Program-made: the position numbers and the translations under genes
The notes under the pieces: model-generated
What the model was told of the DNA's origin: nothing
Seen by the model: only the letters and a program-made list of their open reading frames with translations
Databases searched by the model: none
Assembly (NCBI RefSeq): GCF_011170125.1
Contig: NZ_BLLN01000003.1
Span: forward strand, 1,808,501 to 1,872,500
Direction: 5' to 3'
Source of the DNA: Streptomyces diastaticus subsp. diastaticus
GTDB taxonomy: Bacteria; Actinomycetota; Actinomycetes; Streptomycetales; Streptomycetaceae
DNA length: 64,000 bases
In this document: piece by piece, positions 37,801-44,204 of the stretch
Position numbering within the stretch: position 1 is the first letter of the stretch
How the letters are laid out: each line of letters opens with the position of its first letter

Positions 37801-38786
37801 AGCAGTTCGACTACCGCCGCGCCCACGACGTCGACGGAGCCCTCGCCCTGCTCGCCGCCGATCCGGACGCCCGGTTCCTCGGCGGCGGCACCAACCTCGT
37901 CGACCTGATGAAGACCGGCGTCGAACGCCCCGCCCGCCTCGTCGACCTCCGCGAACTCCCCCTGGACCGCGTCGAGCGCACCCCGGACGGCGGCCTGCGC
38001 GTCGGCGCCACCGTCACCAACAGCGACCTCGCCGCCCACCCGTACGTCCGCCGCCACTACCCGGCGCTGACCCAGGCCGTCCTCGCCGGCGCCTCCGGCC
38101 AACTGCGCAACATGGCCACCGTCGGCGGCAACCTGCTCCAGCGCACCCGCTGTGGCTACTTCACCGACGTCAGCCGGCCGTGCAACAAGCGCGCCCCGGG
38201 CAGCGGCTGCCCGGCCGTCAGCGGCGAGCACCACAACCACGCGGTCCTCGGCGCCTCCGACCACTGTGTGGCCGTCCACCCCTCCGACATGGGCGTCGCC
38301 CTCACCGCGTTCGACGCCGTCGTCTCCTACGAGACCCCCGACGGGCCGGGCCGGACGCCGGTCACCGACTTCTACCTCCCCGTCGGCGACACCCCGCACC
38401 GGGAGACCACCCTCCCGCCCGGCGCGCTGATCACCCACATCACCCTTCCGCCCGCGCCCGCCGCCCGTTCCCGCTACCGCAAGGTGCGCGAACGCGCCTC
38501 GTACGCCTTCGCCATCGGCTCCGTCGCCGCCGCGCTCACCGTCGAGGACGGTCGCGTACGCGAAGCGCGCCTGGCCCTGGGGGCCGTCGCCTCCCGGCCC
38601 TGGCGCGCCCGCGCCGCCGAGGCCGTCCTGACCGGCGCGCCGGCCGACGGCACGACCTTCGCCGCCGCCGCCGACGCCGAACTGGCGGCCGCCCGGCCAC
38701 TGCCCCGCAACGGATACAAGGTGCCCCTCATGCGCAACCTGGTCGTCTCCGTCCTGACCGAACTCGCCGAGGGGGACGCCCGATGA
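37797..38786 (+). CDS. Molybdenum hydroxylase FAD subunit (PaoB/YagS-like)
   Basis: This 329-residue FAD-binding medium subunit has FLGGGTNLVDLMKTGV near residue 27 and the ATVGGNLLQRTRC flavin loop near 108. An extra Cys-rich insertion follows (RCGYFTDVSRPCNKR, SGCPAVSG, ASDHCVAVHPSD), which in PaoB-type subunits holds a [4Fe-4S] cluster that ordinary xanthine dehydrogenases lack. The GTG start overlaps the previous stop as GTGA. Confidence 0.9.
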   Translation: MKQFDYRRAHDVDGALALLAADPDARFLGGGTNLVDLMKTGVERPARLVDLRELPLDRVERTPDGGLRVGATVTNSDLAAHPYVRRHYPALTQAVLAGASGQLRNMATVGGNLLQRTRCGYFTDVSRPCNKRAPGSGCPAVSGEHHNHAVLGASDHCVAVHPSDMGVALTAFDAVVSYETPDGPGRTPVTDFYLPVGDTPHRETTLPPGALITHITLPPAPAARSRYRKVRERASYAFAIGSVAAALTVEDGRVREARLALGAVASRPWRARAAEAVLTGAPADGTTFAAAADAELAAARPLPRNGYKVPLMRNLVVSVLTELAEGDAR

Positions 38787-40936
38787 CGACGACCACACCC
38801 GCCTCGGCAGCCGTGCGCGCGGCCGTCGGCACCGCCCACACCCGCGTGGAAGGCCGCGACAAGGTCACCGGCGCGGCCCGCTACGCGGGAGAGATCCCGT
38901 TCGCCGGACTCGCCCACGGCTGGCTGGTGCTGTCCACGATCACCCGCGGCCGCGTCCGCGAGGTCCGCACCGCCCCGGTACTGCGGATGCCGGGCGTCCT
39001 GGCCGTGCTGCACCACGGCAACGCCCCGCGGCTGCGGACCGACTACGTCGGCCTGCTCGGCGTCCCGCCGGACCCGGCGGCCTGCGTCTTCCAGGACGAC
39101 CGGGTGCCGTTCGCCGGCTGGCCCGTGGCGCTCGTCGTCGCAGAGACGCCCGAGCAGGCCAGGGAGGCGGCCGAGGCGCTCGCAGTCACGTACGAGCAGG
39201 AGCCGCACGACACCGCGCTCGTCGCCGGCCACCCCGGCGCCTACGCCCCTCAGGGCCACATGCCCGCGGAGACCGCCAAGGGGGACCTGGAGGCGGAACT
39301 CGCCGCCTCCGCCGTCGTCGTGGCCGAGGAGTACACCACCCCCGAGGAACAGCACAGCATGATGGAGCCGCACGCGGCCACCGCCCTGTGGGACGGCGGC
39401 CGTCTGGAGGTCGTCGACTCCAACCAGGGCGCGGGCTGGGTGCGCGACGAGCTGGCCACCCTGTTCTCGCTCGACCCCTCCGCCGTGCGCGTACGCTCCG
39501 AGCACATCGGCGGCGGCTTCGGCAGCAAGGGCCCGCGCGCCCACCAGGTCTGCGCCGTGATGGCCACCACGGCCCTGCACCGGCCGGTGCGCGTGGTGCT
39601 GACCCGGCGCCAGCTCTTCTCCCTGGCCGGATACCGCAGCCCCACCACACAGCGCGTCAGGCTCGGCGCCGGTCCCGACGGGCGGCTCCGCGCCCTGGAA
39701 CACCGCTCGCTCAACCAGACGTCCAGGGTGTACGAGTTCGTCGAGCCCAGCGCCGGCGTGGCCCGCGTGATGTACGACGCCGCCGCACACCGCACCGCCA
39801 ACCACGTCGTACGGCTCGACGTGCCCTCGCCGACCTGGATGCGGGCACCCGGCGAGGCACCGGGGTCGTTCGCGATCGAAGCGGCCCTGGACGAACTGGC
39901 CGAGCGCGCCGGCGTCGACCCGATCGAGCTGCGCGTACGCAACGAACCGCAGGCGGGCCCGGTCTCCGGACTCCCCTTCAGCAGCCGCAACCTGGTCGCC
40001 TGTTTCCGCGAGGGCGCGCGCAGGTTCGGCTGGGCGGACCGCGACCCGCGCCCCGGGCTGCGACGCGACGGCCGGTGGCTGCTGGGGACCGGCACGGCGG
40101 CCGCCTCCTTCGGTGCCGGGGCCGCCCCCTCCACGGCGCTGGTGACGGCCGAGGCCGACGGCACCTTCACCGTACGGATCGCCGCCGCCGACATCGGTAC
40201 CGGCGCCCGCACCGCCCTCACCCTCATCGCGGCCGACGCCCTCAGGACCACCCCCGAACGCGTCCGGGTCCGCATCGGCGACAGTGACTTCGGCCAGGCG
40301 ATGATCGCGGGCGGCTCCATGGGCACCCGCTCCTGGGCCTGGGCGGTCACCGCCGCCGCCGCCGAACTGCTCGAACGCCTCGCCCTGGGTACCGGCATCC
40401 CCCCGGAGGGCGTCACCGTGCGGTCCGACACCACCGAGGCCCTGGCCGCCCTCGCCCAGAAGGAGCGGCACTCCTTCGGAGCCCAGTTCGCCGAGGTCGC
40501 CGTGGACACCGCCACCGGCGAGGTGCGTGTGCGCCGCATGCTGGGCATCTTCGCGGCGGGCCGCATCGTCAACCCGCTCACCGCCCGCAACCAACTCGTC
40601 GGCGGCATGACCTGGGGCATCTCCATGGCTCTGCACGAAGAGGCCGTCCGCGACCACCGCACCGGCGCCCACTACGCCCCCGACCTCGCCGGGTACCACG
40701 TGGCCACGCACGCCGACGTCCCGGACATCGAGGCCGACTGGGTGGACGACCACGACCCGGACGACCCGGTCGGCATCAAGGGCATCGGCGAGGTCGGCAT
40801 CGTCGGCGCGGCGGCGGCCGTCGCCAACGCGGTCTGGCACGCCACCGGCGTGCGCCACCGGGAGCTGCCGATCCGGCCCGACCGGATCATCACGGCGGCG
40901 AGGAACCGGCCCGGCGGGGGAGCGGTGGATGCTTGA
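38783..40936 (+). CDS. Molybdenum hydroxylase catalytic subunit (PaoC/YagR-like)
   Basis: This is a 717-residue molybdopterin-cytosine-dinucleotide-type large subunit. HIGGGFGSKG and MRAPGEAPGSFAIEAALDEL are cofactor-binding segments, GGSMGTRSWAWA is typical of the YagR branch, and the late GIKGIGEVGIVGAAAAV contains the catalytic Glu. It hydroxylates or oxidises the substrate at the Mo centre. It starts with ATGA on the preceding stop and overlaps xdhC by 8 bp. Confidence 0.9.
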   Translation: MTTTTPASAAVRAAVGTAHTRVEGRDKVTGAARYAGEIPFAGLAHGWLVLSTITRGRVREVRTAPVLRMPGVLAVLHHGNAPRLRTDYVGLLGVPPDPAACVFQDDRVPFAGWPVALVVAETPEQAREAAEALAVTYEQEPHDTALVAGHPGAYAPQGHMPAETAKGDLEAELAASAVVVAEEYTTPEEQHSMMEPHAATALWDGGRLEVVDSNQGAGWVRDELATLFSLDPSAVRVRSEHIGGGFGSKGPRAHQVCAVMATTALHRPVRVVLTRRQLFSLAGYRSPTTQRVRLGAGPDGRLRALEHRSLNQTSRVYEFVEPSAGVARVMYDAAAHRTANHVVRLDVPSPTWMRAPGEAPGSFAIEAALDELAERAGVDPIELRVRNEPQAGPVSGLPFSSRNLVACFREGARRFGWADRDPRPGLRRDGRWLLGTGTAAASFGAGAAPSTALVTAEADGTFTVRIAAADIGTGARTALTLIAADALRTTPERVRVRIGDSDFGQAMIAGGSMGTRSWAWAVTAAAAELLERLALGTGIPPEGVTVRSDTTEALAALAQKERHSFGAQFAEVAVDTATGEVRVRRMLGIFAAGRIVNPLTARNQLVGGMTWGISMALHEEAVRDHRTGAHYAPDLAGYHVATHADVPDIEADWVDDHDPDDPVGIKGIGEVGIVGAAAAVANAVWHATGVRHRELPIRPDRIITAARNRPGGGAVDA

Positions 40937-42059
40937 CATCACCGGCGAACTGCACCGGTGGATGGAGGAGGGCCGGGAGTTCGCCGTCGGCACCGTCGTC
41001 GCCACCAGCGGCAGCGCCCCGCGCGGCCCCGGTGCCGCCCTCGCCGTCGACAGCGACGGCACGGTCGTCGGATCGGTCTCCGGCGGCTGCGTCGAGGGCG
41101 CCGTCCACGAACTGTGCGTCCAGTCCCTCCAGGACGGTACGACCGTGCGCGAACGGTTCGGCTACAGCGACGAGGACGCCTTCGCGGTCGGACTGACCTG
41201 CGGTGGGGAGCTCGACGTGATGGTCACCCCGGTCCGCGTGGACACCCCGGACCGGGCGGTGCTGCGTGCCGCGCTCTCCGCCGCCGCGGCCGGCTCCCCG
41301 GCCGCCCTCGCCCGGGTCGTCGCCGGCCCCGCCGGGCTACTGGGACGCGCCATGCTCGTCCACGCGGACGGCACCCACGAGGGCGGGTTCGGCGGCCACC
41401 CGGCGCTGGACGGTACGGCGGCGGCCGAGGCCCGGGCGCTGCTGGACGCCGGGCGCAACGGAACCGTCGAACTGTCCGAGCACGGTTCGCACTGCCCCGG
41501 CGGCCTGACGCTGTTCGTCGAGACCAGCCGACCGCCTCCCCGCATGATCGTCTTCGGTGCCGTCGACTTCGCCGCAGCGCTCGTGCGCGTGGGCAAGTTC
41601 CTCGGCCACCACGTGACGGTGTGCGACGCCCGGCCCGTCTTCGCCACCCGGGCCCGGTTCCCCGAGGCCGACGAGGTCGTCGTCGAGTGGCCGCACCACT
41701 ATCTGCGGCGCACCCCGACCGACGGGCGCACCGTGCTGTGCGTCCTCACCCACGAGGCCCGCTTCGACGTGCCGCTGCTCACGGAGGCCCTGCGCAGGCC
41801 CTGCGCCTTCATCGGTGCGATGGGCTCACGCCGTACCCACGAGGAACGGACACGACGGCTGCGCGAGGCGGGCCTGACCACACGTGAACTGGAGCGGCTG
41901 CGCTCGCCCGTCGGCCTGGACCTCGGCGCCCGGACCCCGGAGGAGACCGCCTTGTCGATCGCGGCGGAGATCGTCGCGACCCGCCACGGCGGCACCGGTC
42001 TGCCCCTCACCGGCCGGGCGGAGCCGATCCACCGCGACCTGTCGCCGACGGGCGTCTGA
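40929..42059 (+). CDS. xdhC: XdhC/CoxI-family molybdenum cofactor insertion factor
   Basis: This 376-residue XdhC-family chaperone has an N-terminal XdhC/CoxI segment (ATSGSAPRGPGAALAV, GSVSGGCVEGAVHE, GLTCGGELDV). A C-terminal Rossmann-like domain (VFGAVDFAAALVRVGKFLGHHV, FIGAMGSRRTHEERTRRL) follows. These proteins bind and deliver mature, sulphurated Mo cofactor to the hydroxylase. It is the last gene of the operon. Confidence 0.88.
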   Translation: MLDITGELHRWMEEGREFAVGTVVATSGSAPRGPGAALAVDSDGTVVGSVSGGCVEGAVHELCVQSLQDGTTVRERFGYSDEDAFAVGLTCGGELDVMVTPVRVDTPDRAVLRAALSAAAAGSPAALARVVAGPAGLLGRAMLVHADGTHEGGFGGHPALDGTAAAEARALLDAGRNGTVELSEHGSHCPGGLTLFVETSRPPPRMIVFGAVDFAAALVRVGKFLGHHVTVCDARPVFATRARFPEADEVVVEWPHHYLRRTPTDGRTVLCVLTHEARFDVPLLTEALRRPCAFIGAMGSRRTHEERTRRLREAGLTTRELERLRSPVGLDLGARTPEETALSIAAEIVATRHGGTGLPLTGRAEPIHRDLSPTGV

Positions 42060-42203: not shown

Positions 42204-42367
42204 TATAGTCGATCTTGAAGGCGCCCGGTCGTTTCGGCGGGTGGTCGCCCGCGCGTTGGTGGTCCAAGGAAAGACGCCCCGCTTCCTGCGGGGAGATGCA
42301 GGTGCAAGGCCTGCCCAGCGCTCCGCGAGAAGGGCCCCGTTCCCGGCACCACAGGAACGGGGCCCTT
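42204..42367 (+). ncRNA. Predicted small RNA unit with a tRNA-like fold
   Basis: A TATAGT -10-like hexamer (42204-42209) precedes a ~150-nt region closed by a perfect 14-bp terminator hairpin (42330-42367). Within it, 42253-42322 can fold as a cloverleaf. The acceptor pairs GCGTTGG with CCAGCGC (one G-T). A short D arm GTC/GAC, anticodon arm CCCCG-CTTCCTG-CGGGG and T arm GCAGG-TGCAAGG-CCTGC complete it. The loop would present TCC (Gly), but the T loop lacks the second T, the D stem is 3 bp, the variable loop is 4 nt and CCG replaces CCA. A 5' hairpin (about 42220-42251) precedes it. It is probably a regulatory or tRNA-derived RNA, not a standard tRNA. Confidence 0.55.
42330..42367 (+). terminator. 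Rho-independent-type terminator of the small RNA
   Basis: AAGGGCCCCGTTCC (42330-42343) pairs perfectly with GGAACGGGGCCCTT (42354-42367), with a 10-base loop and a short TT at the end of the stem. It lies 8 bases after the tRNA-like fold and 94 bp beyond it is the convergent hypothetical gene. Confidence 0.85.
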
Positions 42368-42460: not shown

Positions 42461-43561
42461 TCACTCCTGGTCCCAGTCCGGGTGGACGGTGGGACCGGGG
42501 AGCCTGAGGTCGGTGCAGCCCCGGCGTGCGGCCTGGTCCCTCGCGAACGCGCCGAGAAGGCCGCGTACGTCGCTCATCGGAAGCGCTGACCCGGTGTGGT
42601 TCCGGGTGTAGCTGGTGGCGAGGAAGTTCGCCGATTCGCCGGCGCACCGGGCCGCGGCGCGGCCGAAGTCCTGGCCGAGAAGCGCGTCGCGGGCGCTGCG
42701 CCCCTCCGGCACCTGGAGATTGGACGAGACGAGCCTCTCGAACGGCTTGTCCGTCCAGTCGCCGTACCAGCCCGTGAGGCTCACCGCGGGCAGGCCGCTG
42801 CCGGAGTCGATCAGCGAGCAGTGGGTGATCGAGGCGTGCTCGTCCGTGGGCGCGACCACCTGCCATCGCTCACCGGACGGGCTGGCGGGCAGCCTGGTCC
42901 CGGCCAGCCACCCGCACATCGTGCCCCTGGCCCCGGCAAGGGACACCCCGCGGACCGGTTCGACCCGCTCCGGCAGCGGCAGGGCATCGGCACCGCACCC
43001 GGTCTCCACGTTGGCGCCGTTGGCGATCCGCACCGCCGTACGCAGGGACTCGGGCGAGGGGTCGCTCTCCACGCCGTGGGTGTACACCTTGGTGACCAGG
43101 CGCCGCGCCCGGCCCTCCGAATCGGGGCCCAGCTTCGGGCACTCCTGGAGGATCACGGGGCCGAACTTGCCGTAGAAGCCCGGGACGGAGCGGGGATAGG
43201 CGAAACGGAGGTCCCTCGGGACGGTGAACTCCATGTCGAGCGGACCCAGCGGCTCGCCGGTGTCCATCTCCGCCCGCACATCGAGGACGAAGTGCCGGCC
43301 GTCGCTCTCGTCCACCCCGCACCTGAGCGGACCGCTCCCGGTGCCGAAGGTGTCCTTGGCGCCCTGAAGCCGTTCGGCCGGCAACAGCTCGGCCAGCTCA
43401 CGGCCCGACAGGTGGCCCCCGCACAGCGTCGCCGCGTACCACCACGGCTGCCACACCGGCTTGGCCAGCCATCCGGCGCCCGCGAGGAGCGCGAGCACCA
43501 CCCCCACGATTCCCAGCACCCGACCGCCGGGCAGCCACCGCACGCCCCGTATCCCCGCCAT
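42461..43561 (-). CDS. Hypothetical membrane-anchored secreted protein
   Basis: I do not recognise the family. The protein has 366 residues. One N-terminal membrane segment (VLGIVGVVLALLAGAGWLA, residues about 14-32) suggests type II anchoring with an extracytoplasmic body. Several cysteines (in TLCGGHLSG, LRCGVDES, LQECPKLG, ETGCGADA, TMCGWLAG, HCSLID, ARCAGES, RGCTD) could form disulphides. Streptomyces genomes carry similar single-TM proteins of unknown role. The ATG 43561 is chosen just before the basic n-region; the frame extends upstream through non-coding sequence. It stands alone. Confidence 0.75.
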   Translation of the reverse strand: MAGIRGVRWLPGGRVLGIVGVVLALLAGAGWLAKPVWQPWWYAATLCGGHLSGRELAELLPAERLQGAKDTFGTGSGPLRCGVDESDGRHFVLDVRAEMDTGEPLGPLDMEFTVPRDLRFAYPRSVPGFYGKFGPVILQECPKLGPDSEGRARRLVTKVYTHGVESDPSPESLRTAVRIANGANVETGCGADALPLPERVEPVRGVSLAGARGTMCGWLAGTRLPASPSGERWQVVAPTDEHASITHCSLIDSGSGLPAVSLTGWYGDWTDKPFERLVSSNLQVPEGRSARDALLGQDFGRAAARCAGESANFLATSYTRNHTGSALPMSDVRGLLGAFARDQAARRGCTDLRLPGPTVHPDWDQE

Positions 43562-43763
43562 GACCTGCAGTCTCCCCCGTCGCCGCCAGTGCTTCCCCGA
43601 CGCGCGCAGCCTACGCGGTGCCCCGATCCGGCCGGCTCGCGGCCCGAACGTGACGAGGACATCAGTGGTACCCCTGCGCCGGGCGCGCCGACGGGAGAAG
43701 TACGGTTGGCGGAAAGGGCCGCCCGGCAGTCCCCTTCGACTGTCCGGCAGGAAAGGAGGAGCG

Positions 43764-44204
43764 GTGCGCCGAGCACGTACGACCGAGCGGTCGACGAGTT
43801 CCTTCCTGCTGCTGTTGGCCGCGCTGCTCTTCGCCCAGCTCTGCGTCCAGGGACACACCGGTCTGCAAGGCGGTTCTGGCCAGCCGGCTGCCCGCGGGCC
43901 GGTGACGGGGGTCCCGGTGTCCGCGCCGGCCGGGAGCCCGGCGTCCGCCCCGCAAGACGCCTCCGCTCCCGCGGCCGGCGAGCCCGACACGGACTCGACC
44001 GAGGTCTCGCACGGCAAGGGCGGCACCTGCCCTGAGCGTCAGGCCCCGGAGCAGCCGACCAGCCCACACCTGGCCGCACCCGCGGCGGCGGAGTTGCCCT
44101 CCGTGGGCGTCGCCCCCGCTTCCTCCGCCGCACGGTGGCCCGCGCACCGCGAGGACTCGTCCGGCAAGGCGCCACCGGCGCACGTCTGCGTGCTGAGGAT
44201 CTAG
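43764..44204 (+). CDS. Small hypothetical protein with one membrane segment
   Basis: This 146-residue protein of unknown function has a hydrophobic N-terminal segment (SFLLLLAALLFAQLCVQ, residues about 12-28), then a Pro/Ala/Ser-rich, probably extracytoplasmic tail. AAAGGAGGAGC just before GTG 43764 is an excellent ribosome site and decides the start. It is the first of four same-strand genes leading to a DsbA-like and a CcdA-like protein, so a link to extracytoplasmic thiol or metal chemistry is possible but not shown. Confidence 0.6.
   Translation: MRRARTTERSTSSFLLLLAALLFAQLCVQGHTGLQGGSGQPAARGPVTGVPVSAPAGSPASAPQDASAPAAGEPDTDSTEVSHGKGGTCPERQAPEQPTSPHLAAPAAAELPSVGVAPASSAARWPAHREDSSGKAPPAHVCVLRI

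Follow-up and report, generated by a model that had tools for sequence, protein, structure and literature searches.

A dispersed transcription unit of Streptomyces carrying a glycine tRNA with conserved charging determinants and altered decoding features

The DNA analysed here, a stretch of 64,000 nt from Streptomyces diastaticus subsp. diastaticus referred to as the window, contains a unit of ~170 bp on its forward strand, in which a tRNA-Gly(UCC)-like gene is enclosed between a promoter and a terminator of its own. The observation reported in the first-pass annotation is confirmed as such, and copies of the unit are scattered over about half of Streptomyces species. To the reading that the family is a non-translating glycyl-tRNA, which would serve a non-ribosomal glycyl transferase, with FemX-type enzymes considered first, we give an even chance. 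More generally, the family tRNA looks made for glycine loading rather than for the ribosome, so that it probably feeds glycine to a process off the ribosome, e.g., cell-wall building.

The unit starts with the −10-like box TATAGT (42204–42209, + strand, as all features below), an instance of the TANNNT box found upstream throughout the family. The leader (42210–42252) opens with the conserved start motif CGATCTTGA (42210–42218; family form TGATCTTGAGC, according to a position profile of 161 copies) and includes a hairpin (42220–42249). According to ARAGORN, Rfam, folding, and alignment, the tRNA-Gly(UCC)-like body (42253–42322) is a 70-nt cloverleaf with discriminator U73 and without encoded CCA. 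Its anticodon loop CTTCCTG (42282–42288) reads C32 U33 U34 C35 C36 U37 G38 by comparison of 203 copies, and its T loop TGCAAGG (42303–42309) has G55 replacing U55, as judged against 71 tRNA genes of the host. An intrinsic terminator hairpin (42330–42367), also present in the consensus of 60 copies, closes the unit with a 14-bp stem (arms 42330–42343 and 42354–42367). The −10 box, hairpin, cloverleaf, and terminator described by the first-pass annotation are thus all located, and the gap between protein genes in which it placed them is bounded by an XdhC gene upstream (40929–42059, Pfam) and by a converging ORF without Pfam match on the other side (42461–44026). Genes for a molybdopterin-dependent dehydrogenase and XdhC occupy 38180–42059 upstream of the unit. 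From the conserved promoter and terminator, a primary transcript of ~160 nt is expected, whose 5′ leader is presumably removed by RNase P.

Comparison between copies also bears out the earlier proposal of an independent transcription unit. The TANNNT box lies upstream of the tRNA in 158 of 161 non-redundant copies with a 7-nt anticodon loop and is followed by TGATCTTGAGC; the distance from box to tRNA is most often 47 nt (83/161) and equals 49 nt in the window copy. Mean identity among 60 copies (the window copy and 59 drawn at random from 119 eligible; like the promoter profile, this alignment holds 7-nt-loop copies only) is 0.96 for the tRNA, 0.535 for the leader, and 0.494 for the terminator. 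Since the tRNA is held at 0.96 while leader and terminator drift, the tRNA body appears to be what selection fixes. The terminator consensus of these copies has 12 pairs, 11 of them with both-sided changes that keep pairing, and terminators fold far better than shuffled sequences (mean z −6.4, 154/158 below −3; −5.0 in the window). The 5′ hairpin taken alone in the window lacks significance (z −0.64), and the RNAalifold consensus of the 60 copies is without a leader pair, but leaders of the family as a whole have a mean z of −2.26 against shuffles (94 below −2, n = 158). Judging by these comparisons, both the start and the stop of transcription are under selection around the tRNA body.

For 42253–42322(+) ARAGORN reports tRNA-Gly(UCC), and the Rfam tRNA model (RF00005), run with sensitive filters, puts it at 41.9 bits, above the cut-off of 29. 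This is the lowest of 71 tRNA matches in the host genome, the next being 50.5 bits, and the fast Rfam gathering scan missed the window tRNA together with the copies in L170, L323, L054, L199, and L053. A hit in a known RNA family, which the first-pass annotation counted against its proposal, thus formally exists, yet it says no more than "tRNA". The body has an MFE z-score of −2.2 and a D stem of 3 bp plus a C-A mismatch. Its pair cells are standard in 300 of 300 cases (15 distinct copies), with compensatory changes in 3 pairs. The length of the tRNA is kept exactly in other genomes. Taken together, exact-length conservation, standard pair cells, and covarying terminators indicate that the fold is more than chance. 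The label "degenerate" given earlier is wrong because the sequence is highly conserved: a tRNA identity of 0.96 over 60 copies means strong constraint and, next to 0.54 for the leader and 0.49 for the terminator, rules out a degenerate pseudogene. The argument from the missing CCA proves uninformative, CCA being encoded in 79 of 203 copies and absent from the rest. Main-type copies appear in ARAGORN output as ordinary tRNA-Gly, and the program missed all 5 copies with 6-nt anticodon loops at four loci (L054, L083, L199, and L053); annotation software can thus hide the family.

According to a covariance model built from 15 distinct copies, 166 of 295 Streptomyces genomes carry 1–9 copies (E ≤ 1e-7), 4 of the 166 resting on weak model matches (2e-8 to 8e-8). 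Scores with this model are 66–104 bits for complete members, 52 for the partial copy L081, and 26 for L082, also partial; no other tRNA exceeds 39, a value that belongs to a second odd tRNA-Gly (discussed below), the next being 34. Order-wide, 206/391 genomes and 2/10 genera are positive, the second genus through one weak match (G846), and class-wide 20/394 genomes and 1/137 genera; the weak matches (the 4 of 166 and G846) may represent the second tRNA class, and their family membership needs checking. A pattern scan of named genomes returned at least 120 stretches, and the 80 listed comprise 79 from Streptomyces and 1 from Actinacidiphila. In plasmids, 135 places were found in 69 records (67 Streptomyces, 2 Streptantibioticus), with up to 8 copies per record among the matches listed; eight places matching the tRNA lie on NZ_CP032054.1, a linear 1.05-Mb plasmid of S. 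clavuligerus. A phage tRNA origin is ruled out, as 50,697 phage records gave 0 matches and viral contigs gave none to exact patterns. BLAST of the unit over 100 relatives, with 8 candidates scored per genome, recovered the tRNA part in other Streptomyces genomes; the 49 loci obtained, of which 6 are on plasmids and one is the window copy itself, include 2 partial copies that were left out of later counts. Searches over >40 genomes ran with stricter filters. Most of a set of 203 copies came from a pattern in which portions of the D and T arms are preset, so that constancy of the T loop and of A51-U63 within this set is by construction. Two kinds of deviating copies were observed. L323 (G172:C41:16948-17019), found by the model, is a divergent relative with T loop TGCGAGC and a longer D loop, possibly an intermediate form, and L081, L082, and L250 have their 5′ part replaced or diverged and are likely decaying units.

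The bacterial glycine identity set, as given in the accessible part of PMC9976931, consists of U73, G1-C72, C2-G71, G3-C70, C35, and C36. An alignment of 18 distinct copies shows no variation in the acceptor elements. Within the set of 203, the start GCG is present in 202 copies (the exception has its 5′ part replaced) and the end CGCT in all 203, neither being fixed by the collecting pattern. The CC of the anticodon loop is likewise kept in 203/203 copies, while positions 32, 33, 34, and 37 and the loop length vary: CTTCCTG is found in 160 copies, CTTCCCG in 25, CTCCAA in 8, CAACCG in 3, CATCCG in 2, and ATCCAA, CTGCCG, CAGCCG, CTTCCGG, and the 12-nt CTCCCCGCGGGG in one each. One-base deletions thus occur on either side of CC (CTCCAA/ATCCAA, 9 copies; CNNCCG, 7). 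With all known bacterial glycine determinants in place, glycylation by GlyRS is expected, and the glycine identity claimed earlier holds across copies. A dedicated synthetase was considered and rejected: of 101 genomes, 97 show 3 matched pieces of GlyRS and the remaining 4 show 4, consistent with one gene.

The features that serve decoding have a different fate. The T loop has TTC in 69 of 71 host tRNA genes and TGC in 2, both tRNA-Gly(UCC), and TGCAAGG is found in 49/49 BLAST loci, so the alteration noticed at first sight is upheld by comparison. Pyrimidine 37 (U37 or C37) is present in 185/203 copies, and pairing of C32 with G38 is possible in 186/203 and drawn in 60/60 aligned copies, whereas the other distinct host tRNAs examined have purine 37 in 32/32 cases and C32-G38 in 0/32, with A32-U38 in one. 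A 6-nt anticodon loop is found in 16/203 copies, six of these with A at position 33; the corresponding sub-families (CTCCAA and CNNCCG) were observed at L054, L083–L085, L056, L057, L199, and L053. An altered T loop, a pyrimidine at position 37, a 32-38 pair, and 6-nt loops are all features that generally harm decoding. The pair A51-U63 is invariant in 18 distinct copies (columns A48 and T60), and canonical tRNA-Gly of the host have G-C or C-G there; the available text of PMC4052509 describes A51-U63 as weak for EF-Tu in wall tRNAs of Staphylococcus aureus. Canonical tRNA-Gly with UCC, GCC, and CCC anticodons are all encoded by the host genome, so a family copy is not needed for decoding. The window copy retains G18-G19, U33, and a formal 7-nt anticodon loop and could therefore still decode.

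Under the non-translating reading, the unit would be transcribed from its own promoter and end at its own terminator, as comparative conservation supports. The ends would then mature in a tRNA-like manner, with CCA added where it is not encoded, and GlyRS would, by the identity rules, load glycine. Decoding would be poor or nil because the T loop, position 37, and the 32-38 pair are altered, and in some copies the loop length and U33 as well, and the weak A51-U63 pair of the T stem should loosen EF-Tu. In the least certain step, the spared Gly-tRNA would supply a non-ribosomal glycyl transferase. Spreading between sites and replicons would raise the gene dosage.

The likeliest consumer would be a FemX-type enzyme placing glycine on the peptidoglycan precursor, FemX proper being a tentative choice well short of an even chance, and the user may instead be a FemX-like enzyme from a secondary pathway. 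FemAB-family genes are present in 101/101 genomes. In S. coelicolor, the residue carried to FemX and VanK is glycine. Both FemX and VanK of this species are named as aminoacyl-tRNA users in the consulted part of PMC4052509, and the corresponding part of PMC12945691 names FemX-like Gly-tRNA users in antibiotic pathways of Streptomyces, namely DhpK and Orf11 of BD-12. What speaks against a wall role is the patchy presence of the family (166/295 genomes) while FemAB genes are universal. Carriers have no clear excess of FemAB matches (4.04 vs 3.30 in non-carriers, p 0.07; carrier status in the association tests follows the covariance-model survey of 295 genomes), and the larger genomes of carriers (9.15 vs 7.94 Mb, p 2e-6) could alone explain this trend. 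None of the neighbour genes at 172 loci points to a consumer. Another candidate, a LanB/PEARL-type consumer (PF04738), was rejected, being present in 37/51 carriers and 37/50 non-carriers (p 1.0).

The main rival holds that the family is a decoy or sponge, i.e., a multi-copy, non-essential Gly-tRNA that would absorb enzymes attacking tRNA-Gly (acetylating GNAT toxins, pyrophosphorylating toxSAS, anticodon nucleases) and spare the decoding pool. Its patchy, multi-copy, and plasmid-borne distribution suits an arms race, and the toxin literature, as far as the accessible parts of the papers go, fits as well: most GNAT toxins tested are specific to Gly-tRNA (PMC9177977), TacT reads U73 and G71 (PMC9976931), and FaRel2 reads G1-C72 and C2-G71 (PMC11559606), all of them features kept here. 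Yet toxins of the acceptor stem would require neither C35 nor C36, which are the sole constant bases of the anticodon loop, and at pair 4-69 the window family has U-G where the FaRel2 set has G-C. Matches in phages or viral contigs are also missing, and no toxin gene was recognized by eye among recurrent neighbours. We consider the decoy unlikely.

An ordinary extra tRNA-Gly(UCC), employed in translation of, e.g., GGA-rich accessory genes, with its oddities tolerated, is quite unlikely. Main-type copies keep U33 and the UCC anticodon, and ARAGORN calls them tRNA-Gly, but G55 occurs in only 2 of 71 host tRNA genes, both odd tRNA-Gly(UCC), and Y37 and C32-G38 in 0/32 of the other distinct host tRNAs examined. 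Sub-families with 6-nt loops, some with A33, moreover persist elsewhere, and a canonical tRNA-Gly(UCC) is already present.

A regulatory RNA with a tRNA-shaped domain, acting via its leader or sensing glycine charging, would account for the promoter, structured leader, and terminator, and it has a precedent in the pseudo-tRNA of Bacillus cereus (tRNA-Other; PMC3399842, available part). This is very unlikely, as leader (0.54) and terminator (0.49) drift against 0.96 for the tRNA, so that the tRNA body is what is selected, and the sole T-box match of the host precedes a class I synthetase (Ile/Leu/Met/Val-type) rather than GlyRS. That match (G000:C3:617809-617904, 43.1 bits, below cut-off) stands before IleRS as read by eye, and T-box regulation was rejected.

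The last rival, a selfish mobile mini-element whose copying is its only function and whose tRNA shape protects the transcript or recruits tRNA enzymes, concerns the dispersal of the unit. Among 25 within-genome pairs from seven genomes or loci with several copies, copies are alike at most inside the unit, with similarity ending at its edges: more than 60 nt upstream, identity stays at or below 0.65 in every 20-nt step, and in some pairs little except the tRNA is shared. In the clearest pair, two copies at L199 (S. himastatinicus), similarity sets in ~5 nt ahead of the −10 box and runs through the whole terminator. Because homology between copies takes in the −10 box, copying at the DNA level is likelier, and retroposition of the transcript is disfavoured. 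Filled and empty sites are seen at groEL, where L170 and L112 have the unit and 15 loci with both flanks alignable lack it (15 further loci could not be judged); for the window copy, related genomes among the matches listed align to the xdhC side only. These patterns suit a selfish element. Against it, inspection by eye showed neither inverted repeats nor target duplications nor an associated transposase, several sites (beside TsaD, malate dehydrogenase, and GroEL genes, by Pfam names) look common to different species, and a parasite need not keep GlyRS determinants, so that this rival is very doubtful. Where copies occupy corresponding positions in different genomes, the upstream flanks are conserved (L046/L068 and L069/L070). 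The neighbour genes are mixed and the surroundings mostly unrelated: with a crude GC3 rule for gene calling, the commonest neighbour cluster is found at 14 of 172 loci, a count that is not deduplicated and includes repeats of the same place. Neither the initial impression that the surroundings recur nor a neighbour gene as partner survives this result. At L217, L164, L179, and L199, two or three copies lie 1.2–2.1 kb apart with unrelated genes between them.

The second host tRNA-Gly(UCC) with a TGC loop (G000:C2:520584-520655, i.e., L015:1332-1403; also L351) scores 54.1 bits with Rfam and is not listed by ARAGORN. It lies after an Lsr2 gene, 97 nt upstream of tRNA-Gly(GCC), and a counterpart with the same tRNA neighbour exists in G212 (L322), so that the class is seen in G000 and G212; a search against plasmids gave no match in Streptomyces and two at 78–82% in other genera. 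With the window family it shares the UCC anticodon, the TGC T loop, and a family-model score of 39 bits; it differs in its Lsr2/tRNA-Gly(GCC) site, in A18-G19 (A18 for G18) and a bulged T stem, both read by eye, and in a normal-looking anticodon loop TTTCCAA. The two exceptions among 71 agree in amino acid, anticodon, and substitution, which makes it more credible that a function lies behind the change. One conjecture, to which we give somewhat less than an even chance, is a two-tier supply of glycine off the ribosome: a TGC-loop tRNA-Gly(UCC) would stay fixed next to tRNA-Gly(GCC), and a multi-copy class, mobile and horizontally spread, would serve non-ribosomal glycyl transfer alone. The mobile class may in that case have an anticodon arm worn towards the two bases read by GlyRS, and it may serve the peptidoglycan bridge or peptide natural products.

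If the non-translating reading is true, Streptomyces contains glycine tRNAs selected genus-wide in which features for charging are retained and those for decoding lost, testable in genetically tractable laboratory bacteria, and a tRNA gene would be shown capable of travelling as a mobile unit complete in itself. Titles and abstract openings of open-access literature gave no description of the family among the matches listed. Within the host, the canonical tRNA-Gly(UCC) (L006) has the same UCC anticodon, acceptor identity, and U73 as the window tRNA but differs in its TTC T loop, A37, and G51-C63, and BLAST of the window tRNA against its own genome matches itself only, so the body is distinct from the canonical one. 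The tRNA-Other of B. cereus is likewise tRNA-shaped, outside translation, and linked to the cell wall (PMC3399842, accessible part); its tRNA shape, however, is part of a longer regulatory RNA at the edge of an island, whereas the window unit is short, glycine-type, multi-copy, and dispersed.

The closest comparison is with the non-proteinogenic tRNA-Gly of S. aureus, which serves the pentaglycine bridge. It likewise keeps glycine identity, has the weak A51-U63 pair, and exists in several copies beside ordinary tRNA-Gly. Its T arm has GUGC replacing G-T-psi-C, as in the window family. According to the consulted part of PMC4052509, A51-U63 as a weak EF-Tu pair defines the staphylococcal class. 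Pair 49-65 is A-U in staphylococcal wall tRNA-Gly and G-C in the window family, and positions 18-19 are UU or CU there, while GG is kept here; since A49-U65 and the loss of G18-G19 are not found, the family is not filed with that class. It adds Y37, C32-G38, and some 6-nt anticodon loops, and it consists of scattered single units with their own promoter and terminator, on plasmids too. The first-pass annotation, which drew the parallel with non-proteinogenic tRNA-Gly, is supported in part: it stands as regards the independent unit, glycine identity, and altered decoding features, and falls as regards degeneracy, CCA, and recurring surroundings. Class membership aside, the best reading of the analogy is that the family would work like staphylococcal wall tRNA-Gly, and glycine tRNAs withheld from translation are, as a kind, already known from staphylococci.
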